64,000 bases of DNA from Haploplasma axanthum. Lineage in GTDB: Bacteria; Bacillota_I; Bacilli_A; Acholeplasmatales; Acholeplasmataceae. The first letter of the stretch is position 1; every line of letters begins with the position of its first letter. A program made the position numbers and the translations under genes. Location: contig NZ_LR215048.1 of assembly GCF_900660745.1 (NCBI RefSeq), forward strand, positions 1,364,001 to 1,428,000. The letters are read 5' to 3'. The notes beneath the pieces were generated by a model, which did no database searches, was not told where the DNA came from, and saw nothing but the letters and a program-made list of their open reading frames with translations. Shown piece after piece: positions 10,870-53,407 of this stretch.

Positions 10870-12456
10870 TTATTCTTTAGCCTTAAATTTTAACCCGTTA
10901 TTAAATTTAAATGTTATATTCTTGTTACGATTCACTGTTCCTGATTCAACCATCAACATCCATATTCGCTCATCCCATTTATCAATGTCACTTTCAGATT
11001 TACGTAGTGCTTTTAAGAATGCTCTCATTTTAATTTCTAATGATTCTTTTTTAAATCTTTCACTTAATAGTTCCTCAAGTTTTGTTTTTAATTTTTCGTG
11101 TCTTGTTTCTAACGTTTTATACTTTTTTTCAAATTCATTTGAATTATCAGTTGTTTTTGAGTTATCTTTAATTGCTTTTGTTGCAAGTTCCACAACTACT
11201 GCTATCTCTTCACTAACTTTTTCAATTTCTGTTTCTAAATCTTTAGTATTAGCTACTAATTCAATTACTTCATTTAAATCATTAATAATTCTTTTTTTAT
11301 CTTTCATTGTTATATTATACGCTTCTATAAACTTTAATTTAATATCATCTTCAGTTAAATGTGGAGTCCTACATATGCATTTGTCTTTATCAAACTTATT
11401 ATTACATTGATAAACAAACCTTTCATATTTGGTATTTGAATGCCATTTCTTTTTACCATAGAAACCTCCACAATCACTGCATATCAATTTTGATGCAAAT
11501 ATATCAGATGATGAATACTTAGCTCCAAGGTTATCTCTTCTTTTAATTTCAATTTGCACTAACTCCCACATATCTTTATCAATAATAGCTGGATGGCTGT
11601 TTTCCACATAATACTGTGGTATCTGTCCAGTATTTTTTATTATGGTTTGCTCTAAAAAGTTATCAGTAAATGTTTTTTGAAGGAGAGCATCACCTTTGTA
11701 TTTTTCATTTTGAAGTATTGAAGTGATATTATTTTTGGTCCAGTTAGTTGATTTCTTTGAAGGAGTTTTTATTCCTCTTTCTTTTAATTCCTTAGCTATA
11801 CCTGTTGGAGTTTTCCCATAAACTAAAAAGCTTTTATATATTTCTCTTACAATCTCTGCTTCTTCTTCAACAACAACTATTTTGTCATCTACTTTTTTAT
11901 ATCCCAGAAAATTACTATACGCAAATGATACTTTACCTGATTGAAATGCCACACGCTTCCCCCATTGAACGTTCTGACTAATTGATCTTGATTCTTCTTG
12001 TGCGATTGATGCCATTATTGTAAGTATTAGTTCACTTTTAGAATCAAGTGTCCACAAATTTTCCTTTTCAAAGAAAACCTCGACACCTTTTTCTTTTAGC
12101 TTTCTAACATATGAAATAGTATCTAATGTGTTACGGGCAAATCTTGATATCGATTTAGTAATAATTAAGTTTATCTTTCCATCTAGCGCATCTTTAATCA
12201 TTTTATTAAAGCCGACTCTCCTCTTAGTGCTTGTTCCAGTTATACCTTCGTCAGCATACACAGTTACAAACTCCCAATCAAGTCTACCTTGAATATACTC
12301 TTTATAATAATTGACTTGCGCTTCATAACTAGTGTATTGTTCATCAGAACTTGTTGATACTCTGGCATATGCAGCAACTTTTAATTTTTCTTTGTTGTTC
12401 ACTGGCATTTGTGTTAATGGATCAATTGTTGATGGAATTACTGTTACTTTTGTCAT
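10870..12456 (-). CDS. Large serine recombinase, second of a tandem pair
   Basis: This 528-residue site-specific recombinase has an N-terminal resolvase domain with the nucleophile Ser34 in AYARVST and the EESRSIS helix region. A recombinase domain follows (about residues 175-290, TPTGIAKELKERG...). Then come a zinc ribbon (CSDCGG ... CNN ... C) and a long coiled coil (about residues 385-470), the parts that control synapsis in large serine integrases. It overlaps the upstream recombinase gene by 4 bases (ATGA). It probably acts with its partner in integration and excision. Full length, no obvious defect. Confidence 0.93.
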   Translation of the reverse strand: MTKVTVIPSTIDPLTQMPVNNKEKLKVAAYARVSTSSDEQYTSYEAQVNYYKEYIQGRLDWEFVTVYADEGITGTSTKRRVGFNKMIKDALDGKINLIITKSISRFARNTLDTISYVRKLKEKGVEVFFEKENLWTLDSKSELILTIMASIAQEESRSISQNVQWGKRVAFQSGKVSFAYSNFLGYKKVDDKIVVVEEEAEIVREIYKSFLVYGKTPTGIAKELKERGIKTPSKKSTNWTKNNITSILQNEKYKGDALLQKTFTDNFLEQTIIKNTGQIPQYYVENSHPAIIDKDMWELVQIEIKRRDNLGAKYSSSDIFASKLICSDCGGFYGKKKWHSNTKYERFVYQCNNKFDKDKCICRTPHLTEDDIKLKFIEAYNITMKDKKRIINDLNEVIELVANTKDLETEIEKVSEEIAVVVELATKAIKDNSKTTDNSNEFEKKYKTLETRHEKLKTKLEELLSERFKKESLEIKMRAFLKALRKSESDIDKWDERIWMLMVESGTVNRNKNITFKFNNGLKFKAKE

Positions 12457-13754
12457 TTCGCGCTCCCTCCTCCATATCTTTTTAACGTGTGTTGTCTTGC
12501 TTGTTCTTTCATGTCATCAGTCCATCCTTCACTTCGTGGTTTATGAGCCCATTCGTATTCTTTGACACTTCCATCATTTAATTCAAAACGAAGTATATTG
12601 TTTGGCTGTGCTACTACTTGCTGAACTAAATGTTTAAAAATCGGCATACTAAACTTGTTCATGTTTAACAGATGAATTGCGGCTTCTTTAATCTTGTCAT
12701 CAGGCACTTGTTGATTATCACAGTAGCTTTTACCTTTATCTCTAAATGTCGAACAAATCCAATAAATGTTATAAGGTCCCCTCCTATATGTATGCGTTTT
12801 TCCACATTTCCCACATCTGATATACCCTTTAAATTCATTATTATAACTTGAACTTTTGGCAAATTTCAGAGCTTTGCTTTTCCTTATTGCCTGAGCTTCC
12901 ATAAATATTTCTTTGCTTATAATTGGTTCGTGGGAATTACTTACAATGTATTTATCAAGTTCACCTTTATTATGCTTTAACTTTTTAGTCAAATGATTAT
13001 CAATAAAGGTTTTTTGAAGGATTAAATCACCAGTATAATTATAGTTTGCTAATATTTTTGTGATTGTTGTTACACCCCAAGTTTTTGTTCTGTATGGTTT
13101 TATTCCTTTTTCATCAAGTATAGTTCTAATCATTCTGTCTCCATAACCTTCTAAATATAGGCTATATATAAATCTAACTATTTCAGCTTCTTCTGGAACA
13201 ATATGATATTTTTTATTTTCAAGTTTATAACCAAACATTGATGTACTACCCCATATAAGTCCTTTTTCAAAATCTTTCTTAATTCGCCATTTCATATTTT
13301 CGGATATACTTCTTGACTCTTCTTGTGCAAAAGTCGCTAAGAACGTTAAGATCATTTCACCTTCACCACTTAAAGTATGTATGTTTTGTTCTTCAAAGAA
13401 AATGTTAACATTGATTGCTTTTAAGTCTCTCACTGTTTTTAATAGTGTCATTGTGTTTCTTGCAAATCTTGATATTGATTTTGTAATAATCATATCAATC
13501 TTACCCGCTTTACAATCACTCAACATTAGCTGGAACTCATCTCTCAACTCTTTTGTTCCAGTAACTGCCTCGTCCGTATACACTCCTACAAATTCCCACT
13601 CAGGTTTACTTTTAATATAGTTTTTGTAGTGGTTCACTTGTGAGGCTAATGAGTTAAGCATTGCATCTTTACCACTTGATACTCTGGCATAAGCAGCAAC
13701 TCGCAGCCTTTTTGGCATTTCTTTTATCGTTTCAATTTTTGTTATTTTTTTCAT
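12453..13754 (-). CDS. Large serine recombinase, first of a tandem pair
   Basis: This protein of about 433 residues has a resolvase domain (nucleophile Ser26 in AYARVSS), the EESRSIS motif, a recombinase domain and a zinc ribbon (CGKCGK ... C ... C). It has a short C-terminal tail and lacks the long coiled coil of its neighbour. Start ATG 13754 is chosen because AAGGAGGTGG lies 8 bases upstream. The size pair (about 433 + 528 aa, overlapping genes) recalls the ccrA/ccrB arrangement of staphylococcal cassettes. Two cooperating recombinases with different C-termini are likely. Confidence 0.92.
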   Translation of the reverse strand: MKKITKIETIKEMPKRLRVAAYARVSSGKDAMLNSLASQVNHYKNYIKSKPEWEFVGVYTDEAVTGTKELRDEFQLMLSDCKAGKIDMIITKSISRFARNTMTLLKTVRDLKAINVNIFFEEQNIHTLSGEGEMILTFLATFAQEESRSISENMKWRIKKDFEKGLIWGSTSMFGYKLENKKYHIVPEEAEIVRFIYSLYLEGYGDRMIRTILDEKGIKPYRTKTWGVTTITKILANYNYTGDLILQKTFIDNHLTKKLKHNKGELDKYIVSNSHEPIISKEIFMEAQAIRKSKALKFAKSSSYNNEFKGYIRCGKCGKTHTYRRGPYNIYWICSTFRDKGKSYCDNQQVPDDKIKEAAIHLLNMNKFSMPIFKHLVQQVVAQPNNILRFELNDGSVKEYEWAHKPRSEGWTDDMKEQARQHTLKRYGGGSAK

Positions 13755-13789
13755 AACTTCCACCTCCTTGAGCGTACTCTATTAATCAC

Positions 13790-37755: not shown

Positions 37756-37776
37756 TCATTTTTCCCTTTCTGCCAG
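37680..37776. repeat. Array of six TGCCAG motifs
   Basis: TGCCAG occurs at 37680, 37692, 37724 and 37771, and its complement CTGGCA at 37698 and 37746. Two copies form a palindrome. The last copy lies inside the 3' end of the primase gene. CTGGCAGAAAGGG appears twice on the minus strand. This looks like a protein-binding array (origin iterons or operator). Confidence 0.65.
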
Positions 37777-39771
37777 GTCTTGTTTTCTTGTAATAATTCC
37801 TTTTTCTGTTTGATATTCATCACTAAACTCTTTAACTCTTGCTCTTACTGTTCTATCTGAAATATCTAAATATTCTGCTAGGACTGTTGCTTCACAAGTT
37901 CCATCCTCAAGTTTATTTAAATCAAAGGCTGTATCAAACTCTTCTTTTCTCAACTCAGGTGTCTGCTTTCTTTTACCGCTTTTTTCAAGATTTCCTTTAG
38001 GGTCTCCTTCTGCAAAGTGCTTAGTAAGAATGCCTTTTTCATCTACTCTATGAATTGGATATTCAAACCAAAAGTTAACTGGATTTATATTCTTAAACTC
38101 TCTAAGGCTACTCTCTAAACGCCATGCAGTTGATGATAATACATCAGCATTAACAGCCATAAATTCATCACTGGTTTCAAGTTGTATCATGTCTAGTTGT
38201 GCATCTGGATCTCTTGCAAACACACCTGATCCTGAAGCTCTATCCATTGCTTTTTTGAATCCTTGAGCACCCTTTGAATGATGATGACAATAAATAGCAG
38301 CACATCCTGTTTCATTACAAATCTTATCGAATTGATTACTAAATGCACCCATTTCTGATGCATTGTTTTCATCTCCTGTAATAACTTTATATATAGGGTC
38401 AATAATGATAGCGTCATAACCTTGATTTTGAACTTTTCTTATCAACCTAGGCACTAATTTATCTAAAGGCATTGCTCTACCACGAAGGTTCCAAATTACA
38501 ATGTCATGACTATACTTAGGTTTTAGTTTCAATGCTTTATATATTTCAGCAAATCTATTTATACAGCTTGCACCATCAATTTCTAAATTGACATATAAAA
38601 CCTTTGATTTCTTACACTTGAATCCTAGCCATTTAAGACCTTCCGATAGTGCTATAGCCAGTTGCATTAATAAAAAACTTTTACCTGCTTTTGATGAACC
38701 TGAAATTAACATTTTGTGTCCAACTCTTACAATGCCATCAATTAGTACTTCTGGTAGCTTTGGAGGATTTGCTAAGGCTTCATCAAGATATATTAAACTA
38801 GGCATTTCATCAACAATACCTTCAGCAAAATCTAGCCACTCATTCCAATTTCGTCTACCTATATTTGTATCTACTAAAGTTTGAATAACACCTTTTCTTT
38901 GTACACCTGGAATTCTTGATAATCTTGAAGGATTACGGTTTGCTCTATCAACTTTAAGTCCACTTTTATCTAAGAAATCATATAAGTAATCAACACGTTT
39001 TCTATATTCATCTGCATCTTTAGCATCAACTTTTACTATTGCATGTAAACTTCTACTACCACTATGAACTAAGCAAGCAATCGGTAGTTCTAATTTTCTA
39101 TATATTGCATCTTGTTCAGAAATTGGTATATCGTCTGATTCAACTAGAGCATAAGTAAATCTAGTTATGTTATCATTTTTTACACCACCACCGTCAACTG
39201 GATTAAATCTAATCCAACCACCACAATCTTCTTTAACATCTCCAAGTACAGCACCCATATCCTCTGGATTCTTTTTAAGTTGTGTTATAAGTTCTTTTGC
39301 AGTCCTATCAAATTGTCCTTTGCTTGGCATCCACTTACCTGTCGAGTCTTGCCAAACATCACTTGTTACATAGCCTACAAATTCATCATCTTTAAATAGT
39401 GTCTCAAGATATTTAATGAGTTGTTCTGTTGGCTTCATTTCTACCGAAGGTTCATAGATTGCACCAGCGCCATCATATTCAATAATGTCATCCCATTCTA
39501 AGAATCCATCCTTAAGATCAACCGGATGTATCCAACCATAATCTTTTGCAAGTTTAACAATCGTACCACCTGCAACAGGTTCGGAGGAACCACCAAAGCT
39601 CCCCCATTTCCTATCACACTCACCAGGTTTATATCTGGTGTCATTTTTACTCCACTCATCCCATACCGATACATCATAACCTTCAGCTTTAAGTGCCATA
39701 CCGACACTTATCCAATCATGATATGAAACCTTTGATACATCTATATTTTTAAGTGTCGCTAATAAATCCAT
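37756..39771 (-). CDS. Phage primase C-terminal-domain / RepA-type helicase protein
   Basis: This 671-residue replication protein begins with a PriCT-2-type domain (about residues 8-75, VSYHDWISVGMALKAEG). A primase-polymerase-like middle part (about 110-320, RFTYALVESDDIP ... CLVHSGSRSLHAIVKVD) is followed by a RecA/RepA-type ATPase (about 335-560). The ATPase has Walker A GSSKAGKS, Walker B AIIIDPIY and CHHHSKG. A C-terminal winged-helix-like tail (VLAEYLDISDRTVRAR) may read the nearby origin motifs. It probably primes and unwinds phage DNA. Confidence 0.86.
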   Translation of the reverse strand: MDLLATLKNIDVSKVSYHDWISVGMALKAEGYDVSVWDEWSKNDTRYKPGECDRKWGSFGGSSEPVAGGTIVKLAKDYGWIHPVDLKDGFLEWDDIIEYDGAGAIYEPSVEMKPTEQLIKYLETLFKDDEFVGYVTSDVWQDSTGKWMPSKGQFDRTAKELITQLKKNPEDMGAVLGDVKEDCGGWIRFNPVDGGGVKNDNITRFTYALVESDDIPISEQDAIYRKLELPIACLVHSGSRSLHAIVKVDAKDADEYRKRVDYLYDFLDKSGLKVDRANRNPSRLSRIPGVQRKGVIQTLVDTNIGRRNWNEWLDFAEGIVDEMPSLIYLDEALANPPKLPEVLIDGIVRVGHKMLISGSSKAGKSFLLMQLAIALSEGLKWLGFKCKKSKVLYVNLEIDGASCINRFAEIYKALKLKPKYSHDIVIWNLRGRAMPLDKLVPRLIRKVQNQGYDAIIIDPIYKVITGDENNASEMGAFSNQFDKICNETGCAAIYCHHHSKGAQGFKKAMDRASGSGVFARDPDAQLDMIQLETSDEFMAVNADVLSSTAWRLESSLREFKNINPVNFWFEYPIHRVDEKGILTKHFAEGDPKGNLEKSGKRKQTPELRKEEFDTAFDLNKLEDGTCEATVLAEYLDISDRTVRARVKEFSDEYQTEKGIITRKQDLAEREK

Positions 39772-39782
39772 GTTTGTTCCTC

Positions 39783-41360
39783 CTAAGGTTGATAAGTATT
39801 TGTATTAATCTCTCTTGGTACTAACCAACCATTATCTGCAATGCGAGTAATCATCTTACTTGCAGCTTCAAAAGGCCACATACCAACATGGATAAATCCA
39901 TATCTTTCTAATAATCGTATTTGTTTTGGTGTTGCTAATCCTTCAGCTTTTCTGTTTATTAACTTATCAATTAGCGTGCTTGCCATTCCAGAGCTTGTTA
40001 CTGCAGCTGAGTGAATACCTTGTTTTTCTAAATACTCAAGTTGTTTTTCTGAAGCAGGTCCCATCTCCCACGCAAATGTTGGTTCATAGTTTGCTAGGTC
40101 TTCAGCAGCGATAGAAAATGCATATTGAATAGGATCAACCAGTCCGCGTTTTCTTTTACGCATTGCATCCAGTTCTCTTTTTAAAGCATCCTCGCGTTCT
40201 TTGACAACATCACTTTGTGCTTCTGTTTCAGCATCTAATAAATCAATACCACTTTCTTTGTTCATCATTTTTTCATCTATGCGTTTTGCTAATTCTGCAT
40301 CTTTTGAAATAAGTGCTGACGGCCTACATAAATCATGACGTTCTGTCATCCATAAAAAATCTAATAATAGTAAGTTTTCTTTACCTGGATGAATACGCAT
40401 CCCACGACCTACCATTTGCTGATATAAACTTCTAATCTTTGTAGGACGCAAAACAACAATACAATCTACACTGGGAGAATCCCAACCTTCAGTAAGTAAC
40501 ATAGAATTACAAAGCACATCATATTCACCAGCTTCAAAATCTGCCAGTATTTGTTCTCTATCTTTACTTTCACCATTAATTTCTGCAGCTCTTAGGCCGT
40601 GAAGATTTAGTAATTCACAGAACTTCTGCGATGTTTTAATCAGCGGTAAAAATACGACTGTCTTTCTACCTTTTGCATATTTAAGTATCTCAAGTGCTAT
40701 CTGATTTAAATATGGATCAAGTGCAGATCCAACTTGACCTACTGCATAATCACCATTTGAAATACCTACTTCATGAATGTCTAATTCAAGTGGAATCATC
40801 TGAGCTCTAACCGGACTTAAGTATCCTTCTTTAATTGCTTGATGCATTGAATATTCATATGCTTTTGAGTCAAAAAACTTACCCAGGCTTCTCTGATCTG
40901 CACGATCAGGTGTTGCAGTAACACCTAGTATATTTGCACCATCAAAATGCTTTAAAACTCTTTGATAAGTATCACTCATTGCATGATGTGTTTCATCCAC
41001 AACTATTGTCTTAAAATAATCTCTTGGATAAGCTGTTAACCGTTTTTCTTGTGAGAGTGTTTGAATGGATGCAACAGTAACTTTTTTTGACGAACCAACC
41101 GCAGTTGACTCAGCCTTTTCCAAGGCTGAATCTAAACCGCTAGTTACTTTTAATTTATCTGCTGCTTGATCTAATAGTTCACCACGATGTGCAATAACTA
41201 AAGCTTTGTCGCCATCTTTAGTTTCTTCTTCAATAACTTTTGAAAATACGACTGTTTTGCCTGTTCCCGTTGGCAACACCAACAATGTCTTTGCATTGCC
41301 ATTCTTCCATTCATTACGAATAGCTTTTACAGCCTCATTTTGGTATGGTCTTAAAATCAT
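39783..41360 (-). CDS. Phage DEAD/DEAH-box helicase, superfamily 2
   Basis: This 525-residue SF2 helicase has Walker A LPTGTGKTVVF, DETHH (motif II), GVTATPDR (motif III) and YQQMVGRGMRIHP (motif VI). It begins with the RPYQNEAV Q-motif-like start common to UvsW/RecG-related phage helicases. The C-terminal part has charged coiled segments and two ASEKQLEYLEKQGI-like repeats (also TPKQIRLLERYGF), typical of phage versions. It acts in replication or recombination with its operon partners. Confidence 0.93.
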   Translation of the reverse strand: MILRPYQNEAVKAIRNEWKNGNAKTLLVLPTGTGKTVVFSKVIEEETKDGDKALVIAHRGELLDQAADKLKVTSGLDSALEKAESTAVGSSKKVTVASIQTLSQEKRLTAYPRDYFKTIVVDETHHAMSDTYQRVLKHFDGANILGVTATPDRADQRSLGKFFDSKAYEYSMHQAIKEGYLSPVRAQMIPLELDIHEVGISNGDYAVGQVGSALDPYLNQIALEILKYAKGRKTVVFLPLIKTSQKFCELLNLHGLRAAEINGESKDREQILADFEAGEYDVLCNSMLLTEGWDSPSVDCIVVLRPTKIRSLYQQMVGRGMRIHPGKENLLLLDFLWMTERHDLCRPSALISKDAELAKRIDEKMMNKESGIDLLDAETEAQSDVVKEREDALKRELDAMRKRKRGLVDPIQYAFSIAAEDLANYEPTFAWEMGPASEKQLEYLEKQGIHSAAVTSSGMASTLIDKLINRKAEGLATPKQIRLLERYGFIHVGMWPFEAASKMITRIADNGWLVPREINTNTYQP

Positions 41361-41371
41361 AGTAGCCCTCC

Positions 41372-41827
41372 TTAAAATGGAAGATCATCTATAAAATTCG
41401 CTTGATCATAGTCAATGAATCTGTCTAAGTCGTTATAAGTTCTATCTTCACCACTTTGATTTGTATATGTTTTTTGTTTGAAGTAACCACGACCTTTTGA
41501 ACCTACTACTTTATTCCAATCCATAGATAGTTTCTCACCATGTTTCTTTTGTCCGATTGATCTAAAGAATGCTGATAATTTCCACTCTAAAGATTTATAT
41601 AAAAGTAGGTCGAATTTCACTGTTGCAACCCCTTCTTTTGAATCTACTTGAACAGTAATGGTTGCTTTATTACAAGGCGGAACTTTTGCTCCACCAGGAA
41701 ATCTACCTCTTTCAAAATTTGTAACTGTAAAGTTGTACTCACCATCAGGAAGTAATATAAACTCCTGACCATCACTTTCAATTGAATCATTCCAATCCAT
41801 TAACATATCTTTATTATTTTCTTGCAT
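41372..41827 (-). CDS. DUF669 phage protein, SSB-like
   Basis: This 151-residue protein of the DUF669 family (PDGEYNFTVTNFERGRFPGGAKVPPCNKATI) resembles proteins that often lie beside recombination ATPases in phages of Bacillota and may bind single-stranded DNA. It ends in an acidic tail (YDQANFIDDLPF), as seen in single-strand-binding proteins. Two bases separate it from the ATPase gene. Confidence 0.88.
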   Translation of the reverse strand: MQENNKDMLMDWNDSIESDGQEFILLPDGEYNFTVTNFERGRFPGGAKVPPCNKATITVQVDSKEGVATVKFDLLLYKSLEWKLSAFFRSIGQKKHGEKLSMDWNKVVGSKGRGYFKQKTYTNQSGEDRTYNDLDRFIDYDQANFIDDLPF

Positions 41828-41829
41828 TT

Positions 41830-42774
41830 TTATTGTTCTCCTTTTTTATTTTTAATTGTTTCTAATACACGTTCCCAATTTGGAATAATCCATCTTGTAA
41901 TAAATTCATCTGAATAATTTTGAACCAGCACACTTAATTCATAGTGTCCTTTTTCTGCTACTACTTCTTGTAATTCAAGTTCACTAATCCCAGCATCAAC
42001 AATCATCTTGTTTAGTCTTTGAACAGTTAAGCTTAGTTCTGGTTCCTTTACAGGTTGTTCTAAGCCTTCAAATAAATGAGCAATTGATTTAAAATCAAGT
42101 TCTAACTCTTCTCGTAAATCAAAGCGGTTCTTTGCATCGTATGTTGGGTTATGAGTTGTATATAAAACTCTTTTTCCGCCTTGTGCTTTCCTACGATTAC
42201 TTTCTGTTGTAACTACATAAATCTTGTAGTTGGTAAAGAATAGCGCGTCTGACCATTCCTTAATTACTGGCGCTACCTGTTTCGTTAGTTTCATTTCATA
42301 TCTATCGAATGCACCTTGCTCTTCTGGAAGCTCAAACTTGCGAGGCTTTGCATGGGCAGTAATAACAACATTAATACCCGCTTCTATTACTTGGTCGAAC
42401 AAGGTTAATAGTTTTGTATATTCATCAAGTAGATAGACATAGCCCTTACCGTAACCAAAATCCTCAATGTTATTTTTTCTATACTTTTCAGTTACTGCAT
42501 TAATACATAAAGTTTCTGACCAATCTGCAGTATCTAAAACTAACGTTTTACAAATTGTAGGATTCTTAATAACCTCTTTGACTATTAGTAATAATTCATC
42601 CCATGACTTATTACATTTGATTCTTCTAACATCTAAATTGCTTGTACCACCCTCGGTATCTATAAATAGTGGGTCAGGGAACTTGCTGGCAAAGGTAGAT
42701 TTACCTATGCCTTCTGGACCATAAATCACTACTTTTAGTGGTCTTTTTTCTTTTCCTTCAATAATTTTCAACAT
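41830..42774 (-). CDS. Phage RecA-like ATPase (Sak4-type / AAA_24)
   Basis: This 314-residue ATPase has Walker A GPEGIGKST (about residue 19) and Walker B TLVLDTADW, followed by VVITAHAKP. It resembles phage nucleotide-binding proteins of the Sak4 group, which anneal DNA single strands. It lies between a Cas4-like nuclease and an SSB-like protein, a common phage recombination set. No frameshift. Confidence 0.87.
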   Translation of the reverse strand: MLKIIEGKEKRPLKVVIYGPEGIGKSTFASKFPDPLFIDTEGGTSNLDVRRIKCNKSWDELLLIVKEVIKNPTICKTLVLDTADWSETLCINAVTEKYRKNNIEDFGYGKGYVYLLDEYTKLLTLFDQVIEAGINVVITAHAKPRKFELPEEQGAFDRYEMKLTKQVAPVIKEWSDALFFTNYKIYVVTTESNRRKAQGGKRVLYTTHNPTYDAKNRFDLREELELDFKSIAHLFEGLEQPVKEPELSLTVQRLNKMIVDAGISELELQEVVAEKGHYELSVLVQNYSDEFITRWIIPNWERVLETIKNKKGEQ

Positions 42775-42776
42775 TC

Positions 42777-43964
42777 CTATTTGTCTCCTTCTTTTATAAT
42801 CTCTGCCTCTTTTCGAGGATCTTCATCTGGGACTAAACTTAACGAGCCCGTCTGCATTTCTAAGTGAGGTGCAATTAAACTATTAAATCTTTCTTTTCCT
42901 AATCGTTTAGTTAATTCGGTTATCCCTGCCACTTTGCTTTCAACATATGGATCAATTTCTAAACTTTTGCAAATTTTAATTACCGCATCTTCATTAACGA
43001 TCTTTCTACTGCCCTTACCATAAACTAATTTAAATCCGTTCCACTTGTGTCCATCTATCGCTTTCTTAAGTACATGTTTTTTTAAGTCTTCTGCATACTT
43101 TATGAATTCATCAAGTTTTGGTAGGATTTCCTCAATTTCTTTATCCGTTAATAAATTAAATGCTTTGTTCATTTCTTGTGTAATCTCAAGATTTACTTCA
43201 GCTCTTTTACTGCATACAGCATTTGCTGAACAATATCTACAATGTTTGCCTGGATTAGCTTCCGGATTTTCTTCTTTAGTTCTAATAACTGCAGGGCGTA
43301 GAACCATCGCTTCAAACACTAGTAAATCGTCTATATCCATTTCATATTCATTTGTATTTGAAATTACCGGTTGATAAACTATTAATCTTACCTTTTTGAT
43401 TGGATATAAATCTTTGTATGCTTTATAGAAATAAAGTGCATAAATTCCTAATTGTGAATTAAACATTTTAGTTTCATCATCAAATGTATAAACTGGTATC
43501 CTTCCAGTTTTTAAATCAATTACAGTGAGGGTTCCACCATTCATAGATGAGATGATTCCACAATCTAATGTCCCTTTAGCATCTTCATCAAAGTCCATCT
43601 TTAAAAGCTGCTCAATAATAATTAATGGTTTCTCACCAGATCTTGTTTTTTCAAACTCAAATGTATTAACAACAAAATCTGCATAACCATCAGCAATCTC
43701 CTGCATCTCAGGTGAATACATATCAAGCTCTTTAATTAACTCTTCTACCGGCTTACTTTCATTTTCATAATCAATAAGCTTTAAAGATTTATTAATTAAT
43801 GCTGAACTTAATTCATGACACTGAGTTCCAAATTCTGCTTGTGGGCTTATCTCTTCACCACTACCATCATTCAATAGAGTGCTGAGTGGACAATTTAGCC
43901 AAATATTACTTTTACTTGGACTATATTTTTTACTATGAGTCGTTGAACTATTTCCCACTTTCAT
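42777..43964 (-). CDS. DUF2800 Cas4-like PD-(D/E)XK exonuclease
   Basis: This 395-residue nuclease of the DUF2800/Cas4 type has the N-terminal SKSNIWLNCPLSTLL with the first Cys. The catalytic residues are in GTLDCGIIS and TVIDLKTGR (D ... DxK). The C-terminal cluster CRYCSANAVC offers the remaining iron-sulphur ligands. It resects DNA ends for recombination with the ATPase downstream. The start is ATG 43964 or GTG 43958; both lie close behind AAGGAGGTGATG. Confidence 0.88.
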   Translation of the reverse strand: MKVGNSSTTHSKKYSPSKSNIWLNCPLSTLLNDGSGEEISPQAEFGTQCHELSSALINKSLKLIDYENESKPVEELIKELDMYSPEMQEIADGYADFVVNTFEFEKTRSGEKPLIIIEQLLKMDFDEDAKGTLDCGIISSMNGGTLTVIDLKTGRIPVYTFDDETKMFNSQLGIYALYFYKAYKDLYPIKKVRLIVYQPVISNTNEYEMDIDDLLVFEAMVLRPAVIRTKEENPEANPGKHCRYCSANAVCSKRAEVNLEITQEMNKAFNLLTDKEIEEILPKLDEFIKYAEDLKKHVLKKAIDGHKWNGFKLVYGKGSRKIVNEDAVIKICKSLEIDPYVESKVAGITELTKRLGKERFNSLIAPHLEMQTGSLSLVPDEDPRKEAEIIKEGDK

Positions 43965-44106
43965 CACCTCCTTTATCTGGCTTGTCTTTTGGAGTTAACA
44001 TAATCTCCTGAGCCAAAACTTTACTGGTTTCACTAATAAGTAGTAATGTTTCTACAAGATCTTTATTAGTGAGACTTTTATCCTTGTCTTTTGGATCTTT
44101 TTCCAT
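43948..44106 (-). CDS. Small phage protein (52 aa)
   Basis: This ORF encodes 52 residues (MEKDPKDKDKSLTNKDLVET...), lysine- and glutamate-rich with one amphipathic helix. It starts at ATG 44106 with GCGAGG upstream, and its end overlaps the DUF2800 start by 17 bases, so translational coupling is likely. Small charged proteins in this position are common ahead of DUF2800 genes. Function unknown. Confidence 0.65.
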   Translation of the reverse strand: MEKDPKDKDKSLTNKDLVETLLLISETSKVLAQEIMLTPKDKPDKGGDESGK

Positions 44107-44141
44107 TCTTCTATCCTCGCTTTCTAATGGGGATTATTTCC

Positions 44142-44158
44142 CCTCAAAGGTTAATGGC
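44142..44158. repeat. 17-bp exact repeat, copy 2 (CCTCAAAGGTTAATGGC)
   Basis: Identical to 14370-14386 and in the same orientation. It lies upstream of the 44106 gene, next to a GGGG/CCCC hairpin (44129-44143) and a CCGG-bounded dyad (44156-44180). Confidence 0.6.
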
Positions 44159-44183
44159 CGGTAGAGTTATAAAAAACCGGATT

Positions 44184-44714
44184 TTATCTAAACTTTGTTG
44201 CTTTTTCTTTTAATTTTTCAATTAACCTAACTCTTCTCTCTTGAACTGATGAAGTTGCCCTATTAATTGCTACACCAATTTGTGCATCTGTATATCCTTC
44301 AAAATGAAGTCTAATAATTGTTTGTTCTATCTCTTTAAACTCAGATATTAATTCCCATAAGTAATCCACAAGATCCTCTTCTTGTTGTTTTTCTATATTT
44401 TCTGCATAAGAAGGATCTGGAAATTCATAATTATATTTATCTTTTAGGTCATCCATTGAAACAGGACACTTTTCTCTTGCTCTGTTTTCTCTTCTTTGCT
44501 CATTCCTATTTAGATTTCGATGTTTATGAAAATACTCCTCAGTACATGGAACAAATCTTCTATGTCCATCAATGTCTATAAAATGTATCCAATTTGTTAA
44601 TCTGATACCTTGTTCGTCAAATATTCCTTTATCAATTTCTTTTTTTAATACTTCTAAATCTCCATATCCATAAATATTTGGATACATATCTTTTTCTTTT
44701 TTTGTTTTATTCAT
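44184..44714 (-). CDS. Phage early regulator with sigma-70 region-4-like HTH
   Basis: This 176-residue protein has a helical N-terminal part and a basic middle (RNLNRNEQRRENRAREK). The C-terminal HTH is FEGYTDAQIGVAINRATSSVQERRVRLIEKLK, resembling sigma-70 region 4. It is the first gene of the leftward phage operon, downstream of a long structured leader (44715-45000). It may control early transcription. The start ATG 44714 follows GGAGG. Confidence 0.78.
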   Translation of the reverse strand: MNKTKKEKDMYPNIYGYGDLEVLKKEIDKGIFDEQGIRLTNWIHFIDIDGHRRFVPCTEEYFHKHRNLNRNEQRRENRAREKCPVSMDDLKDKYNYEFPDPSYAENIEKQQEEDLVDYLWELISEFKEIEQTIIRLHFEGYTDAQIGVAINRATSSVQERRVRLIEKLKEKATKFR

Positions 44715-45208: not shown

Positions 45209-45412
45209 ATGACATTCTCATATAACAAATTATGGAAACTTTTAATAGACCATAAGATGATAAAAAAAGATCTAATGGACAAAGCAAAGATCAATGCCAC
45301 TACTATGTCTAACATGAGTAAAGGGAAGTCGGTCAGTCTTGAAACATTGGGTCGTATTTGCAAAGCGCTAAATTGTAATATTGGCGATATCGTTGATTTT
45401 ATCAATGATTAA
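45209..45412 (+). CDS. Small Cro/CI-type HTH regulator ahead of the defence genes
   Basis: This 67-residue single-domain XRE-like regulator (HTH_26 type) contains IKKDLMDKAKINATTMSNMSKG as helices 1-3. It has a strong ribosome site (GAGGAGG). It is divergent from the phage early operon and cotranscribed with the defence genes 26 bases downstream. It could repress its own promoter and perhaps the phage early promoter. The prophage otherwise has no visible CI-type repressor. Confidence 0.85.
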   Translation: MTFSYNKLWKLLIDHKMIKKDLMDKAKINATTMSNMSKGKSVSLETLGRICKALNCNIGDIVDFIND

Positions 45413-45438: not shown

Positions 45439-46893
45439 TTGAAAAAATTATGTCTCGGTACTCTTCTTCGTATATTATGTGATGCTAGAATACCCACTTC
45501 AAAGCAATACTTATTTTTAAATGATCTATTATCTACTGTAAAATCTGATCCTAGTTATATTGACTCTAAGGCTCAAAGTGCTTTATTATCTGGCAAAAAC
45601 AATCTTACACATTATGATGATATTTTAACTTGTGATAAAGATAGACTAAAAGATAAATTTGAAAATAATATTAAACCTTATTTTAACGAAGATAGTCAAA
45701 AACTAATTATTATATGTATCCAGGATGTTCTAAAAGAGGATACAGCTATTAAAGAAACTGATAATATAGGTTTTGAAACTGATGGATATACTAAACAAGA
45801 CATAATCACTAAACAAATATTTCCATTTTCAGAGTTTTTAACAAATGTATATTATTATTGCACCACAGAAGTTGAGAACATTCCATATAAGGCTAATATT
45901 GCTGAAATTAAAGATTATACCAAAAAACAGACTGGTAGAATTAATGATGTTCAACTAGAGACCGCTGTAACTCACGTTAGTTCAAAAGTTAAATTATCAT
46001 TAGATCCACAACCATTCAGCACGGTTTTTAAAGAAGTTAAATATCTTAAACTTGCCATACCAAATCCTAACGATTTAAAAATTTATAGATTAGATGTAAC
46101 GAACAGCAAAATTGACTATAATAAATTACACGGTTTTATTGCTGATAACATTGGAAGATATATTTATTCACGAGGATCTCGAAATCGCTATAATTTAGAG
46201 AAAAATTCAATGCACTTAGCAATAAAAACATTAAGGGCTTATCACGATAGAGTTAGAAAAACACCAACTACAAATCACTTTAATGAAATCATGCTATATT
46301 CATTTCTTGAATGCATTTTAGGTGCACCTAAAATTTTTTCAAAGATGGAATTACAAAACAAAAGTGGCATGTATGATAGCCTTTCATCAGGAATCCATAT
46401 AAATACTTTTAAAAATGGTGGAATGTTTTTTAATCAACTTATTTTTGGAGCTACTGATACAATAGAAAATTTAGAAGACGCAGTGGATAACGCTTTAAAT
46501 CAAGTATTATCTATACAATCTGCTTCAAGTAGTGAGTATGAATTTTTAGAAAACACAATCTTAAACAATGAATTTGATGTTGAAACCAATAAAGCTTTAG
46601 AGAGTATGATTATCCCTGAAAAGGGATCAGGATTAACAAAACCTGATAATGCTTTTGGCTTATTTTTAGGATATACAGTGAAAACTCCTTATGAACCTGA
46701 TAATACTATTTACTCTGCAAATCTAGAAGCGCAAATGGATATAGATATAACCAATATTTCTACATACTTAGAAAAAAGAATCACAGCTTTAAAGTTATTG
46801 AACTATTCATTTTATGTTTATGTGCTTCCACTAAATGATGCCATAATTGACAAAGAAACTATAATGAAAAATGCATTGGAGGTGAGTAAGTAA
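45439..46893 (+). CDS. hamA: HamA-like protein (DUF1837), long variant with altered nuclease motif
   Basis: The product has 484 residues from TTG 45439 behind AAGAGGTGAT. The C-terminal ~290 residues follow the DUF1837/HamA pattern: FNEIMLYSFLECILGAPKIFSKM (E283, K302), then SSGIHI, then QLIFGATDTIENLEDAVDNAL. In the family as I remember it, these last two read GxDGxH and GExKxY (the D-ExK nuclease site). Here Ser317 and A338-T339-D340 stand there instead. The N-terminal ~190 residues are an extension not seen in typical ~300-aa HamA. It overlaps hamB by one base. Hachiman HamA-HamB complexes sense damaged or phage DNA. Confidence 0.72.
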   Translation: MKKLCLGTLLRILCDARIPTSKQYLFLNDLLSTVKSDPSYIDSKAQSALLSGKNNLTHYDDILTCDKDRLKDKFENNIKPYFNEDSQKLIIICIQDVLKEDTAIKETDNIGFETDGYTKQDIITKQIFPFSEFLTNVYYYCTTEVENIPYKANIAEIKDYTKKQTGRINDVQLETAVTHVSSKVKLSLDPQPFSTVFKEVKYLKLAIPNPNDLKIYRLDVTNSKIDYNKLHGFIADNIGRYIYSRGSRNRYNLEKNSMHLAIKTLRAYHDRVRKTPTTNHFNEIMLYSFLECILGAPKIFSKMELQNKSGMYDSLSSGIHINTFKNGGMFFNQLIFGATDTIENLEDAVDNALNQVLSIQSASSSEYEFLENTILNNEFDVETNKALESMIIPEKGSGLTKPDNAFGLFLGYTVKTPYEPDNTIYSANLEAQMDIDITNISTYLEKRITALKLLNYSFYVYVLPLNDAIIDKETIMKNALEVSK

Positions 46894-49499
46894 TGAAACC
46901 TCGTTATGCAACTCTTGGTGAACATATATATTATAAACTTGAAGAAAATGAGTATTTAAACGAGCTCTATGAAATCATCTTATTTAATTACTCAATGGAT
47001 TTAATGGGTTCACCACAAAGAAAAAAACCTATAAAAAAAGAGCATGCTTTGCGTTTTGCTGACATACTCTCTAAATCATATGGACAACCCAACTCTGAAA
47101 AACATCGTGCTTGGGCTCAAGAAATAATTGCTTTATTAAACGCAACATACTCTGATGATGCAGTAATAAAAGCATATGCTACTTCTGTTTTGGCAAACAT
47201 TGGTAATTACCGTGGATTACAACTTATTAAAACTAAATATAAAAACACTTCATTTTTGGATGAACTTTACCAGAGTTTTGATCTTGATTATCTTAAAATA
47301 CCACATCAGGAAAATATGTATTTTTTTCATCCTCAAAAAGAGATATACGATCATTTGAGTGACAAATCTTTTTCTTATTCTGGTCCAACTTCAATGGGCA
47401 AATCACTTGTAATGAGAACCTTTATTAAAGACAAAATAATGAATGATTTTAAAGGTAATTTTGCAATTTTAGTTCCCACTAAGGCGTTAATTAGCGAAAT
47501 ATCTTCAAACATTATTAAAATTGATTTACAAGATGAGCTTAGTAATAAAAATTACAAAGTGGTTACATCAGGAAACTCACTATTTTTTAAACAAGAAAAC
47601 TTAAACTATATTATGGTTATGACACCAGAAAGGCTGTTGTATACTTTAATATCTTATCCTGAAATGTCAGTGGATTATCTTTTTATTGATGAAGCACATA
47701 AACTGTCAGAAGCGGATGGTAGAGCCACTTTTTACTTTAAAGTTACCGATATGTTAATAGAGAGACCAAGAAAACCTCGCGTTATTTTAGCATCACCAAA
47801 TATACCAAATCCAGAAATATATCTTGATGCACTCCCGAGCGAACAAATTAATAATCCTACATATTTAAGAACAACTTTTACTCCAGTTAGCCAAATGAAG
47901 TATGTTTTAGATACAGTATCTAAAGAATTTAAAGTCTTTAATGAGCGCACTAATAAAAAGGACCCTTTCAAAACTATCTATTCGTTAAATGAAGCAGATA
48001 CAACTCTTGTTTTAATTCAAAAGATTATACAAAAAGACCTAAATAAATCTAACATTGTTTACTGTTCTGGAAGAGATAGAACTGTAGAAATGGCCAGAGA
48101 TTTCGCTAAATCGCTCCCGTATTTAGATAACAAAATACTAAACGATCTAGCAAAAGAGATCGAGGATGAAATTCATTCAGATTATTATTTAGCAGATATC
48201 ATAAGAAAAGGCGTCTCTTATCATGTTGGATATTTACCTCTATATATAAGGTCCAAAATTGAAGATCTTTATAGGAATAGAGATATCAAAACAATTTTCT
48301 GCACTTCTACTCTTATTGAAGGAGTAAATCTTCCTGCCGATAATCTTATAGTAATAAGTGTGAGAATAGGTCGAAAGGGAAACATGAACCAAGTAGAATT
48401 CAAAAACTTATTGGGACGTGTTGGAAGAATTGAATACAATCTTTATGGTAATGTATTTATTATTCGCGACTCTAATATGGCTGAAAAAACAATGAATAAC
48501 CTTCTTCTAAATGATGTGGAAAATCAAGAAATATCCCTAAAAACACAATTAAATAATGAAACTAAAGAATACATTATAAATCAGTTTTTAAATGGGAGTT
48601 CACAACTGAATCCTCTCCCAGAACAAAAGCCTAATGAATATGATTTAATGAGAAAAACTGGTCTCATTTTATTAAATGATATTACTAAAAATAGGAACAG
48701 TGTTGTGAGAAAACAATTTAGTCATTTACTTGATGAGCAAAAAATTGATACTATAAAATTATTGTTTGGAATAAATAATTCCACTAAACCAAAACCTGAT
48801 GATGATATTAATGTATCCTTAGATCAAACAGAAAATTTAATATCGGCTATTAACAATGGACTGAAGTATCCTGAGTTATTAGATGGCCGTGTTCAATACG
48901 ATGATTTAGTTAATTTTTTGTCGGAATTAAGAAAGATCTTTAAATGGGATGTCTATGAAAAAACAACACTGGGGCTTGGAGACAGAATAAAATATTATGC
49001 AGTTATACTTTCTCGATGGATGAATGAATATGGTTTAAGTTTTTTATTAAAAGAAACAATTGATCACGCAGCTGAAAATAATGGCTTTGTAAATAAAAAC
49101 TATGAACTTATACCTTATAATGGTTCACAAGAGCATAAAAACTTAATAATTGGTGATACTCTCCAAATTATAGAAAATGTTATTCTATTTAGTCTTGCTA
49201 ATTATTTTCTTAGATTTTCAACCGAGTATAAAAAATTAAAAACTAATAATGAACCCTTCGATAATGACTGGTATGAATATGTCGAGTTTGGTTCAACTAA
49301 CCAACTTACTATATTTTTCCAAAGAAACGGACTAACGAGAGAAACAGCGGATTACATTCGTAGACATCAAGAATATGTTATTTACACTCAACAGGGTTAT
49401 AAATTGAAGAAATCACTTCTTAATTGTGGAAAGAGATCTGTGGAGGATGAAATCGCAGATATATTATTTAACGTTCCAGAATTATTTATTAATGAATAA
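46893..49499 (+). CDS. hamB: HamB-like SF2 helicase of a Hachiman defence system
   Basis: This 868-residue superfamily-2 helicase has Walker A GPTSMGKS (residues 164-171), DEAH (266-269), motif III-like LASPNIPNP and motif VI LLGRVGRIEYN. The large C-terminal region (about residues 560-868) is helical and typical of HamB. Start ATG 46893 overlaps the hamA stop (TAATG) after GGAGGTGAG. It should use ATP to scan DNA and control HamA. All helicase motifs look intact even though the HamA active site does not. Confidence 0.85.
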   Translation: MKPRYATLGEHIYYKLEENEYLNELYEIILFNYSMDLMGSPQRKKPIKKEHALRFADILSKSYGQPNSEKHRAWAQEIIALLNATYSDDAVIKAYATSVLANIGNYRGLQLIKTKYKNTSFLDELYQSFDLDYLKIPHQENMYFFHPQKEIYDHLSDKSFSYSGPTSMGKSLVMRTFIKDKIMNDFKGNFAILVPTKALISEISSNIIKIDLQDELSNKNYKVVTSGNSLFFKQENLNYIMVMTPERLLYTLISYPEMSVDYLFIDEAHKLSEADGRATFYFKVTDMLIERPRKPRVILASPNIPNPEIYLDALPSEQINNPTYLRTTFTPVSQMKYVLDTVSKEFKVFNERTNKKDPFKTIYSLNEADTTLVLIQKIIQKDLNKSNIVYCSGRDRTVEMARDFAKSLPYLDNKILNDLAKEIEDEIHSDYYLADIIRKGVSYHVGYLPLYIRSKIEDLYRNRDIKTIFCTSTLIEGVNLPADNLIVISVRIGRKGNMNQVEFKNLLGRVGRIEYNLYGNVFIIRDSNMAEKTMNNLLLNDVENQEISLKTQLNNETKEYIINQFLNGSSQLNPLPEQKPNEYDLMRKTGLILLNDITKNRNSVVRKQFSHLLDEQKIDTIKLLFGINNSTKPKPDDDINVSLDQTENLISAINNGLKYPELLDGRVQYDDLVNFLSELRKIFKWDVYEKTTLGLGDRIKYYAVILSRWMNEYGLSFLLKETIDHAAENNGFVNKNYELIPYNGSQEHKNLIIGDTLQIIENVILFSLANYFLRFSTEYKKLKTNNEPFDNDWYEYVEFGSTNQLTIFFQRNGLTRETADYIRRHQEYVIYTQQGYKLKKSLLNCGKRSVEDEIADILFNVPELFINE

Positions 49500-49560: not shown

Positions 49561-50685
49561 TTATAGTAATCTTCGTCTTCGTTCAACTATAACTTCCTCG
49601 TGCTTAAAAAACTCCTCTAAAGTAAAATCCTGTTGCATCATGTTGGATAAATGCTTAGACCAAAAAACGTTTGTTGGTCTCGAAGGAGGAAGCACACACT
49701 TTTTAATTGAATCCCAAACAAATCTATTTCTATTAACAGATTCATCATGTGTAAAGTCAAGGTTATTAGGATGATTCTTATTTTTTATACTAAAATCCAT
49801 AATATCAATAGCTTCAACTTGAATAGGATCATAGAGTATATTATCACCAATTCTTTTACCAATAATAACACTTGGATGATTGTCACAATAGTCTAATAAA
49901 TTACCCGTATATACTTCTGATTCATATTTTGCTTCTCTTAGATGCTTTCTTAAATTCAGCATAATTTTGTTAAATTTATTTTTATTATTTTCTTCTAATG
50001 TTTCATATTTAATACTATGCATTGCAAAATACGCCATTGTTAAATCAAGATCTAATGCAACATCAGCATTCAAATATTCAACAGCTGGATTAAATAATGT
50101 AATGTTACCGCTGTGACTTTCTTTACTATTTTGTTGACCACCTCGAATCGATACAAATAAAAAACCACTCCATTTTTCATTTCCAATACCACCAGATATA
50201 TCTTGTTTCAAGTAAAAATCAGAATAATTATTTTCGTTAATTACTACTACATTTCCTTTATAATAAACTTCTGTGTTTTGTAATAATTTATTAAAATATT
50301 CTCTCTGATGAAATGATGACGATGTGCCTGTTTCACTTCTAAAAGTAAGTATAGCAGAAACATTTTCATCACTACCAATTCTATTAATGAGTTCAATAAA
50401 TGTTGGATTGTCTCTGTTTTCTTCATTAAAATAGTCCTCATTTACTAATTCAACTGTAACTCCACCACTAAATGAATCCAGTTGTTCAATTGTCAAATTA
50501 TTATCCCTCACTGACGACCAGGTGATTAAAGATCTGTTTTTTCTGTGAGTACGTCTTTGAAAAATCTCAAGTGGCACACTATAACTTCCTGTTTTACCAC
50601 TAATATTTGTAAATTTTGTTCTTATATCTTCATGGAATGAACCAAGAAAGTTAAACACCTCTAACCTTGTTTGACTACGTGTCAT
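49561..50685 (-). CDS. Unknown 374-aa protein beside a DNA methyltransferase, possible restriction enzyme
   Basis: I do not recognise the family. The N-terminal part (RSQTRLEVFNFLGSFHED, about residues 3-20) is helical. The middle is beta-rich (VSAILTFRSETGTSSSFHQREYF; IGNEKWSGFLFVSIRGGQ). The C-terminal third carries LPPSRPTNVFWSKHLSNMMQQDF and ends in a basic RRRR tail. No clear PD-(D/E)XK, HNH or GIY-YIG motif is visible. It follows the methylase gene by 142 bases, with a terminator between them, so it probably has its own promoter. The pairing suggests a type II-like restriction enzyme, but only by position. Confidence 0.55.
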   Translation of the reverse strand: MTRSQTRLEVFNFLGSFHEDIRTKFTNISGKTGSYSVPLEIFQRRTHRKNRSLITWSSVRDNNLTIEQLDSFSGGVTVELVNEDYFNEENRDNPTFIELINRIGSDENVSAILTFRSETGTSSSFHQREYFNKLLQNTEVYYKGNVVVINENNYSDFYLKQDISGGIGNEKWSGFLFVSIRGGQQNSKESHSGNITLFNPAVEYLNADVALDLDLTMAYFAMHSIKYETLEENNKNKFNKIMLNLRKHLREAKYESEVYTGNLLDYCDNHPSVIIGKRIGDNILYDPIQVEAIDIMDFSIKNKNHPNNLDFTHDESVNRNRFVWDSIKKCVLPPSRPTNVFWSKHLSNMMQQDFTLEEFFKHEEVIVERRRRLL

Positions 50686-50725
50686 ATAAACCCCTCTATT
50701 CTCTTTGTTTTTTATAACAAAAAAA

Positions 50726-50750
50726 GTTATAATCTTAATAAGATTATAAC
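50726..50750 (-). terminator. Terminator between the methylase and 374-aa genes
   Basis: A perfect 11-bp stem GTTATAATCTT / AAGATTATAAC with a 3-base loop is followed by TTTTTTT on the minus strand, 78 bases after the methylase stop. Separate control of the two genes is likely. Confidence 0.85.
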
Positions 50751-50827
50751 AGTTTTGAGATAGTTTTACAATGAAAACTTATTAGTTGATAATGGTAATA
50801 TCTAGTTAATTTACTTTCTTTTAATTA

Positions 50828-52885
50828 TTATTTCTTGAATATCTTTTCTAAGGATAATTCATAATATTCTTTATTCAGTTCAATTCCCAAACCCTTATAA
50901 CCATTTTGTAGTGCCCATTTAAGTGATGTACCACTACCTAAGTATGGGTCGAGAATATAATCATCTTTTAAAGTAAAATCCTTTAATAAATCTACCAATT
51001 CTAGTGGATAAGGAGCAGTATGTTTATATGTATTTTCGCCCTTTGAATTTATTTTAATTACTGGATTGATTTTTACTACTTTACTAGGGTTCTTTTTTGA
51101 TGTTCCTTTTAAGAAAACTAGGACATGCTCATAGCAGTTGATACATTTTACATAACCCGAAAATAAATTTACAGTTGAATTTCTTTTAGATTGTACTTGA
51201 CCTTTATCCCAAATGATATTACCAATAAGATTAAAACCTGCAATTTCAAATATCATTGAAGATAGAAATCCTAACTGAATTCTTTTCTTTGACATAAGGG
51301 ATACAACATAAACATTATCTTCAGCAACGATGTCACCTATATTATATAAATAATATGAATCCTCTTTTAAGGAATTGTATACTGCATCAGCATTTAAAAG
51401 CATATCAACAAAATAAAGTATCATGTTTCCCCATTGTGAGTATTCTCTTGCATTATAATATGGTGGGGACGTAATGGCTGAACCAACTTGAGCAGGTTTT
51501 AGTTTATTTAAAAAACTGGTAGAGTTATCATTAATTACTTCTATATCTTTTTCCAAAACTATATTTCGTTTAGTATTTTCTTCTTTACCATCAAAGATAC
51601 CCTTAAATAAATTAAATATTGGCAACTTTTCAAATTCTTTCACAATATTTAAAGCCGTTTTTGTTTCATTTGTAATCTCATTCGTAATGTTTCTACCATA
51701 AGAGTTTATATTGTTAACATTTTTAACTAGTATATTTTCATCATTATATGAATAGTTTTTAATTAAATATTTTTTCCAATCAGCATCATTATCAAATATA
51801 TCTCTTCGCCAACTGTAATATAAATCATCATCTATTTGATTAGACTCTGAATTCTTTGCTAGTTTAAAATATCGATAAGTACCATATTCATCAAATCGTT
51901 TACCCCTTCCAGACTTACTTCTATCTGGGCAGGATGGGTTTGCACACTCCCAACTTTTTATAAATACCTCAGGATAAGAATTACCTCTTTGTTCTGTAGT
52001 AAAACATGAAGGGCAAGGTACATTAGAATTATCTAATTCAATTTTTTTAAGGATTAAGATTTTAGTTGTTTGATTTTCACTTATATATAAATCTTCAAAT
52101 TTGTAGCCATATGACATTCCATCATAAAAACTTAAAGCCAAAGTTTGAGCATTTTTAATATTTTTCTCATCTAGAAAATTAGCTAAAATTTTTGTTTGAT
52201 TTTCACTTTTAAAAGCATGGAATTTTTCTGTATGTTGTACAAAATTTTCAGCATAAATACCAGCCTTATAAATCAATTGCCAAGTCTTATCAAAATCATT
52301 TTTATCTTTAATATTATCAGCAAAAACTATAGCCAAGTGCCTGTAGTTAATTAATTTATCATATGTATTAAATATAAATTCATTTATAAAATTAGGATTA
52401 TAATCATTTCTTTCAAACTCAGCTTGATCAACTTTGTAAATCATTAACGAATAATCTACATTAGAATATTTTTCTTTATAGTAATCTAACCATTTATCAG
52501 CGTGTCTGCCGATTTTATTGCCTTTTTCTAAATCCATAATATTTGTTTTTAATGATTTAATAATTTTATCAGGATCATATGTTTCTAGTCTAGAGTAAAA
52601 ATCATTAAAGACTTCTTTTAATTCCTCTTCATTGTATGTAAAAGTTCTAATTTTATATTCTGAAAACTCTTCTGTATCCAATAATTCATCTCTAAAATAA
52701 TAGTACTTCCTAAATTTATTTCTCATAACTGTATTGAAAACAATATCGTTTTCTTTTTGTATTCTTTGTAATTCAACTACAAACTCTTTGTCTTTTTTTC
52801 TAGTCATTTCAAATACTAATGAAATTAATAACTTATCAGGAATATCCATATTTAATTTATCTTTTACTTTATCAAATTCTTTCAT
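50828..52885 (-). CDS. Large DNA amino-methyltransferase with zinc-ribbon insert
   Basis: This 685-residue protein has a long helical N-terminal region (1-300) and a zinc ribbon (CPSC ... CANPSCPD, about 305-335). The C-terminal beta-class methyltransferase has motif IV SPPYYNAREY (residues 473-482) and motif I DPYLGSGTS (about 650). SPPY suggests N4-cytosine or N6-adenine methylation. The ribosome site AGGAGG is strong. It is unlike the phage ParB-methylase, being larger with its own DNA-reading parts. It may be the modification half of a restriction-modification system with the 374-aa protein, or a solitary methylase. Confidence 0.8.
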   Translation of the reverse strand: MKEFDKVKDKLNMDIPDKLLISLVFEMTRKKDKEFVVELQRIQKENDIVFNTVMRNKFRKYYYFRDELLDTEEFSEYKIRTFTYNEEELKEVFNDFYSRLETYDPDKIIKSLKTNIMDLEKGNKIGRHADKWLDYYKEKYSNVDYSLMIYKVDQAEFERNDYNPNFINEFIFNTYDKLINYRHLAIVFADNIKDKNDFDKTWQLIYKAGIYAENFVQHTEKFHAFKSENQTKILANFLDEKNIKNAQTLALSFYDGMSYGYKFEDLYISENQTTKILILKKIELDNSNVPCPSCFTTEQRGNSYPEVFIKSWECANPSCPDRSKSGRGKRFDEYGTYRYFKLAKNSESNQIDDDLYYSWRRDIFDNDADWKKYLIKNYSYNDENILVKNVNNINSYGRNITNEITNETKTALNIVKEFEKLPIFNLFKGIFDGKEENTKRNIVLEKDIEVINDNSTSFLNKLKPAQVGSAITSPPYYNAREYSQWGNMILYFVDMLLNADAVYNSLKEDSYYLYNIGDIVAEDNVYVVSLMSKKRIQLGFLSSMIFEIAGFNLIGNIIWDKGQVQSKRNSTVNLFSGYVKCINCYEHVLVFLKGTSKKNPSKVVKINPVIKINSKGENTYKHTAPYPLELVDLLKDFTLKDDYILDPYLGSGTSLKWALQNGYKGLGIELNKEYYELSLEKIFKK

Positions 52886-53322: not shown

Positions 53323-53407
53323 TGGTCCCCGCGGTCGGATTCGAACCAACACGGATTTCTCCACAGGATTTTGAGTCCAGCACGTCTACCAGTTTCATCA
53401 CGCGGGG
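53323..53407 (-). tRNA. tRNA-Leu (CAA anticodon)
   Basis: This 85-nt tRNA with a long variable arm and an encoded CCA has the acceptor stem CCCCGCG / CGCGGGG, the T-loop GGTTCGAATCC and the anticodon loop CTCAAAA (anticodon CAA at 53371-53373). It reads UUG leucine codons. The anticodon stem appears to hold one T-T mismatch. It lies between the mobile region and the fatty-acid operon, a typical integration neighbourhood. Confidence 0.93.

Follow-up and report, generated by a model that had tools for sequence, protein, structure and literature searches.

A prophage Hachiman locus of Haploplasma axanthum in which a HamA lacking its nuclease residues is fused to a helical domain also found in an ABC-3C protein

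Introduction

HamA proteins that combine a fused domain with a dead nuclease core have already been published. AbpA joins a nuclease to a dead HamA (PMC12278908, PMC10732053), and this fused, Cap4-like nuclease is required for defence (PMC10732053). In HamMAB, the dead HamA is fused to an activating protease that is likewise required, and forced dimerisation can replace the dead HamA (PMC12799240). Nuclease activity tends to be lost in fused HamAs, and the retention of a dead HamA by AbpAB has been considered enigmatic (PMC12278908). In canonical Hachiman from ECOR31, mutation of HamA residues D119, E138 and K140 abolishes defence, E138A,K140A being the mutant named (PMC12278908). Here, we compare these systems with a HamA-HamB pair in a stretch of 64,000 nucleotides of the Haploplasma axanthum genome (NZ_LR215048.1, positions 1,364,001 to 1,428,000; hereafter the window), using relatives drawn from genomes of the window's own phylum and from viral contigs, which are cited by locus label (L002 and so on).

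Results and discussion

A Hachiman pair in a prophage

The features of the locus, in window coordinates, are as follows.

45209-45412, + strand: 67-aa XRE-like HTH protein, probable operon regulator (orthologues upstream of relatives)
45439-45954, + strand: HamA N-terminal domain (NTD), residues 1-172, all-helical module (AlphaFold2 model; homology to the NTD of an ABC-3C CTD11 protein)
45955-46014, + strand: linker, about residues 173-192 (pLDDT below 50 at 176-188)
46015-46890, + strand: HamA (DUF1837) core, predicted nuclease-dead, residues 193-484 (PF08878, motif table, hhalign, weak Foldseek match)
46893-49499, + strand: HamB, Ski2-like helicase, 868 aa (PADLOC PDLC00190, 1021 bits; PDB 9wh1_B, E = 6e-76)

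The hamA gene (45439-46893, + strand) starts with TTG and encodes 484 aa. A preliminary description made from the sequence had called its DUF1837 frame clear, which is borne out by the Pfam HamA family (PF08878; residues 229-465, E = 2.3e-31, cut-off passed) and by the PADLOC HamA model PDLC00164 (residues 1-482 on model positions 1-487 of 490, E = 5e-101). HamB retains its helicase motifs (GPTSMGKS at 164, DEAH at 266, GRVGR at 508), and its start codon shares one base with the hamA stop codon (TAATG). The pair is a Hachiman system: a DUF1837/PF08878 HamA with an adjacent HamB helicase of intact motifs, in the same two-gene order and with the same homologous core and HamB as ECOR31 HamAB (8vx9, PMC12278908). 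Since the PDLC00164 match runs along the full protein, N-terminal domain included, this architecture is already present in the PADLOC collection, although the models PDLC00164 and PDLC00190 are silent on the lost motif and on the identity of the NTD. The closest solved relatives are the HamAB structures PDB 9wh1, 9whk and 9whu (HamB E = 6e-76; HamA core profile E = 8e-23); the HamA domain of 9wh1 also lacks D-ExK in the alignment, and the N-terminal part of the three gave no match to the window NTD.

The pair lies in a prophage spanning 10870-53407, between the replication genes (37756-44714) and a putative methyltransferase pair; the defence genes sit beside tRNA-Leu(CAA) (53323-53407), which is just beyond that pair. 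At 10870-13763, at a prophage end, are two genes that we take by recognition to be serine recombinases, similar to those of L003. The prophage at L004 is syntenic (HamA 58%, HamB 69%, five shared replication genes), and at L040, L043, L044 and L020 the cassette adjoins an opposite-strand replication gene that we presume, again by recognition, to be DUF2800-like. Convergent with HamAB, the stretch 49561-52885 (- strand) encodes a 374-aa protein without family match and a 685-aa N4/N6 DNA methyltransferase, possibly a restriction-modification pair at the prophage end. At L017 and L031-L034, the NTD-bearing HamA and HamB are found directly downstream of restriction genes, and at L017 the two proteins encoded upstream are matched by type II restriction enzyme models of PADLOC (REase_II).

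A small HTH gene is found directly upstream in seven loci with an NTD-bearing HamA (the window, L002, L003, L004, L040, L043, L044) and also at L020. We considered and rejected this gene as part of an effector cassette: relatives at 40-50% identity precede methyltransferase or other genes in related genomes, which makes the 67-aa protein probably a general operon regulator, and its sequence relatives suggest a regulator family common to defence operons. Such relatives precede methyltransferase or restriction genes at L092-L095 and L081, in related genomes and a phage.

Loss of the nuclease residues

The preliminary description held that Ser317 and Ala338/Asp340 replace the D and ExK of the HamA active site while Glu283 and Lys302 of the family core remain. 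In a MAFFT alignment of 30 HamAs, S317, A338 and D340 occupy the canonical D, E and K positions, and E283 and K302 are kept. The three replaced positions correspond to D119, E138 and K140 of ECOR31 HamA, and E283 aligns with its E84. Profile alignment of 13 NTD-type cores with six canonical HamAs (hhalign, E = 8e-18) pairs SSGIHI with YDCFHF and FGATD with FGESK; the canonical profile in turn meets ECOR31 HamA (8vx9_A) in a weak match (E = 0.29) that places GED at D119 and TEAK at E138/K140. The three alignments, the last of them weak, thus agree with the residue assignments, and the window HamA lacks the D-GExK site that marks nuclease Hachiman. Comparison with many DUF1837 proteins, which had been proposed as a check, further shows that loss of ExK is common to the whole group: it is absent in 20/20 HamAs bearing the same NTD. 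D-ExK is kept in six HamAs lacking the NTD (L014, L056, L062, L064-L066) and in the shorter L057, and D-GExK persists in the canonical short HamAs of the bacterial class to which the window belongs.

Whether the core still cuts DNA through a migrated or alternative DUF1837 site was weighed against the same alignments. Such a site would be in keeping with E283 and K302, which most members retain, and with the D at position 317 kept in the clostridial branch; however, no NTD-bearing member has E338 or K340, position 317 is Ser in the window subclade (L002, L003, L004) and in L009-L012, and L009-L011, of the same architecture, have lost E283 and K302 as well. The alignment of relatives reveals no migrated acid-Lys site in the window core, and we regard residual cutting as very unlikely. 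The G337-A338 pair is invariant in 16 aligned members, so in these sequences the replaced position 338 is fixed rather than drifting.

Two short HamAs without the NTD, at L018 (5980-6921) and L007 (1501-2424, - strand), keep D and have lost ExK, so that ExK loss alone does not require the NTD. Partly on our own reading, we take the former to lie in a type III-like restriction-modification operon and the latter to adjoin a type I-like R subunit.

The NTD-bearing group is a maintained form

NTD-bearing HamAs are spread through Bacilli genomes and viral contigs; none was found on the plasmids searched, and weak hits at L079 and L080 were rejected as chance matches to unrelated ORFs. On the HamA core tree the NTD form clusters, its label lying far from shuffled labels, and a single origin is possible. 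Wherever dS could be estimated without saturation, dN/dS was 0.03-0.24 in NTD and core alike; such purifying selection on both domains indicates that dead core and NTD are maintained together as a stable form rather than as a decaying gene. It might be argued that what the prophage carries in the window is a Hachiman remnant, decaying or without function, given that some relatives are broken: the NTD-HamA genes of L047 (4091-5356) and L027 (6001-7275) are interrupted or truncated beside transposase genes, and L077 and L019 carry fragments. This is most improbable for the window, where the genes are intact and overlap stop to start, the relatives show the selection just described, and operon and site are conserved across distant prophages.

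A helical N-terminal domain without solved relative

The preliminary description had noted about 190 extra N-terminal residues. The extra part is present, but the domain proper comprises about 172 residues, followed by a linker modelled at low confidence between residues 176 and 188. Modelled alone with AlphaFold2, the NTD is all-helical (mean pLDDT 90, pTM 0.89). Sequence searches of Pfam (over cut-off), NCBIfam, PHROGs and PDB returned no match to it, the PADLOC HamA model alone covering the NTD, and Foldseek of the model against PDB gave nothing better than E = 1.2. In the full-length HamA model the NTD is confident and the core weaker; the best Foldseek matches, AbpA (8zue_A, at the top) and HamA 8vxy, are both weak, which probably reflects the poorer modelling of the core.

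We recognised no catalytic motif in the domain. Among its polar residues, it is mainly D101 and K119 that are strongly conserved between divergent members, and in the aligned sequences this conservation gives no pointer to a known catalytic site. A Cap4-like, trypsin-like or other known effector was rejected for want of any sequence or fold match, and a membrane or DNA-binding role is unsupported (maximum 19-residue hydropathy 0.82, net charge -4). The model and the alignments fit a conserved helical module, which could act as a new kind of effector or as an adaptor.

The domain is shared with an ABC-3C protein

The same domain occurs outside Hachiman, and a Hachiman-specific NTD was therefore rejected. 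On phage PV036457 (L020), it stands on a protein whose C-terminal part is ABC-3C CTD11 (Pfam E = 8e-12). The L020 and HamA NTDs align by hhalign with 99.4% probability (E = 1e-21), and the NTD of the PADLOC HamA model matches that of L020 at E = 3e-29. The NTD tree places L020 among the HamA NTDs as the partner of the HamA of L044 (support 99/98), and the identity of L020 is 38% to L044 vs 22-30% to other NTDs. This closeness to a HamA NTD points to a module that moved between two defence systems. Besides the NTD, the two loci have in common an HTH gene upstream and their prophage site; they differ in that the L020 gene is followed by a DUF2326 ATPase and then a methyltransferase, whereas the window protein ends in HamA and is partnered by a helicase, and so lacks the ABC ATPase and C-terminal domain that define ABC-3C. 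Scans of viral contigs with the ABC-3C NTD or the full protein gave no second example, which leaves a single ABC-3C protein as the basis for the exchange. Within L020 (4998-6377), a CxxC...CxxxC stretch between NTD and CTD11 resembles by eye a degenerate HNH or a zinc ribbon.

What the shared domain does can be read in two ways. We put forward tentatively that it is an as yet unnamed effector with a new fold, which has passed between Hachiman and ABC-3C and is active when clustered; if true, the same killing or arrest module would be driven by two unrelated phage sensors. Somewhat more doubtful is an adaptor or oligomerisation module that, when HamB fires, brings in a host factor or an enzyme encoded nearby, for example a restriction enzyme. 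An adaptor would suit an all-helical domain with neither catalytic motif nor fold match that serves two mechanistically different systems, and it would also suit the position of many relatives directly downstream of restriction enzyme genes (e.g., REase_II at L017) and of the short ExK-less HamAs within or adjoining restriction-modification genes. Against it, no restriction gene was seen to precede the cassette directly on its own strand at the window locus, L040, L043 or L044, and in the AbpA and HamMAB precedents the position of the NTD is held by an enzyme. We somewhat favour an effector over an adaptor.

Comparison with described systems and a proposed mechanism

An extra N-terminal domain on a HamA without D-GExK places the window protein in the class of AbpAB and HamMAB, and both this class and the window architecture are already known. 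Accordingly, the Hachiman branch with a non-cutting HamA anticipated by the preliminary description holds as regards the lost D-ExK, with ExK loss conserved in all NTD relatives, but not as a novelty, since dead-core fusions have been published. Relative to canonical Hachiman, the window has Ser, Ala and Asp for D119, E138 and K140 and an extra NTD of 172 residues. Like E. coli AbpA/AbpB (8zue), it combines an N-terminal fusion on inactive HamA with a Ski2-like helicase; the AbpA NTD, however, is a Cap4-like nuclease (PMC10732053), whereas the window NTD is all-helical, has no nuclease motif and matches neither a Pfam nuclease, PF14130 included, nor a nuclease fold. HamMAB (PMC12799240) likewise fuses a domain to HamA without D-GExK next to an intact HamB helicase; the window HamA, in contrast, has no trypsin-like Pfam match and no MBL nuclease gene beside the pair, the gene upstream of hamA being the 67-aa HTH. 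What looks new is the NTD itself and its occurrence in an ABC-3C protein: neither was described in the literature searched, a search that covered PMC12799240 short of its supplement, where HamA fusions are listed.

By analogy with AbpA and HamMAB (PMC10732053, PMC12799240), we consider it reasonably probable that this prophage Hachiman acts as a dead-HamA fusion, with HamB as the sensor, the HamA core as the docking and clustering part, and the NTD as the effector or its recruiter. HamB would sense phage DNA that is damaged, abnormal or being replicated; the HamA core, no longer cutting DNA, would dock to HamB and cluster on activation; and the NTD, released or brought together, would act against the virus or arrest growth, whether it is itself an unrecognised effector or recruits one. 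The observations behind this scheme are the gene order, the D-ExK loss, the conservation of the fusion, the intact helicase motifs and the NTD shared with ABC-3C. Against it stand an NTD without catalytic motif whose fold is unlike any solved effector, and the ExK-less HamAs of L018 and L007, which have no NTD.

The group formed by this NTD and dead HamA is a further case bearing on dead HamA as a docking and clustering part. Its NTD has a compact fold, modelled with confidence and without solved relative, and occurs in two unrelated defence systems that occupy the same prophage site. As an effector, the NTD would be of a new type; as an adaptor, it could reveal what Hachiman recruits.
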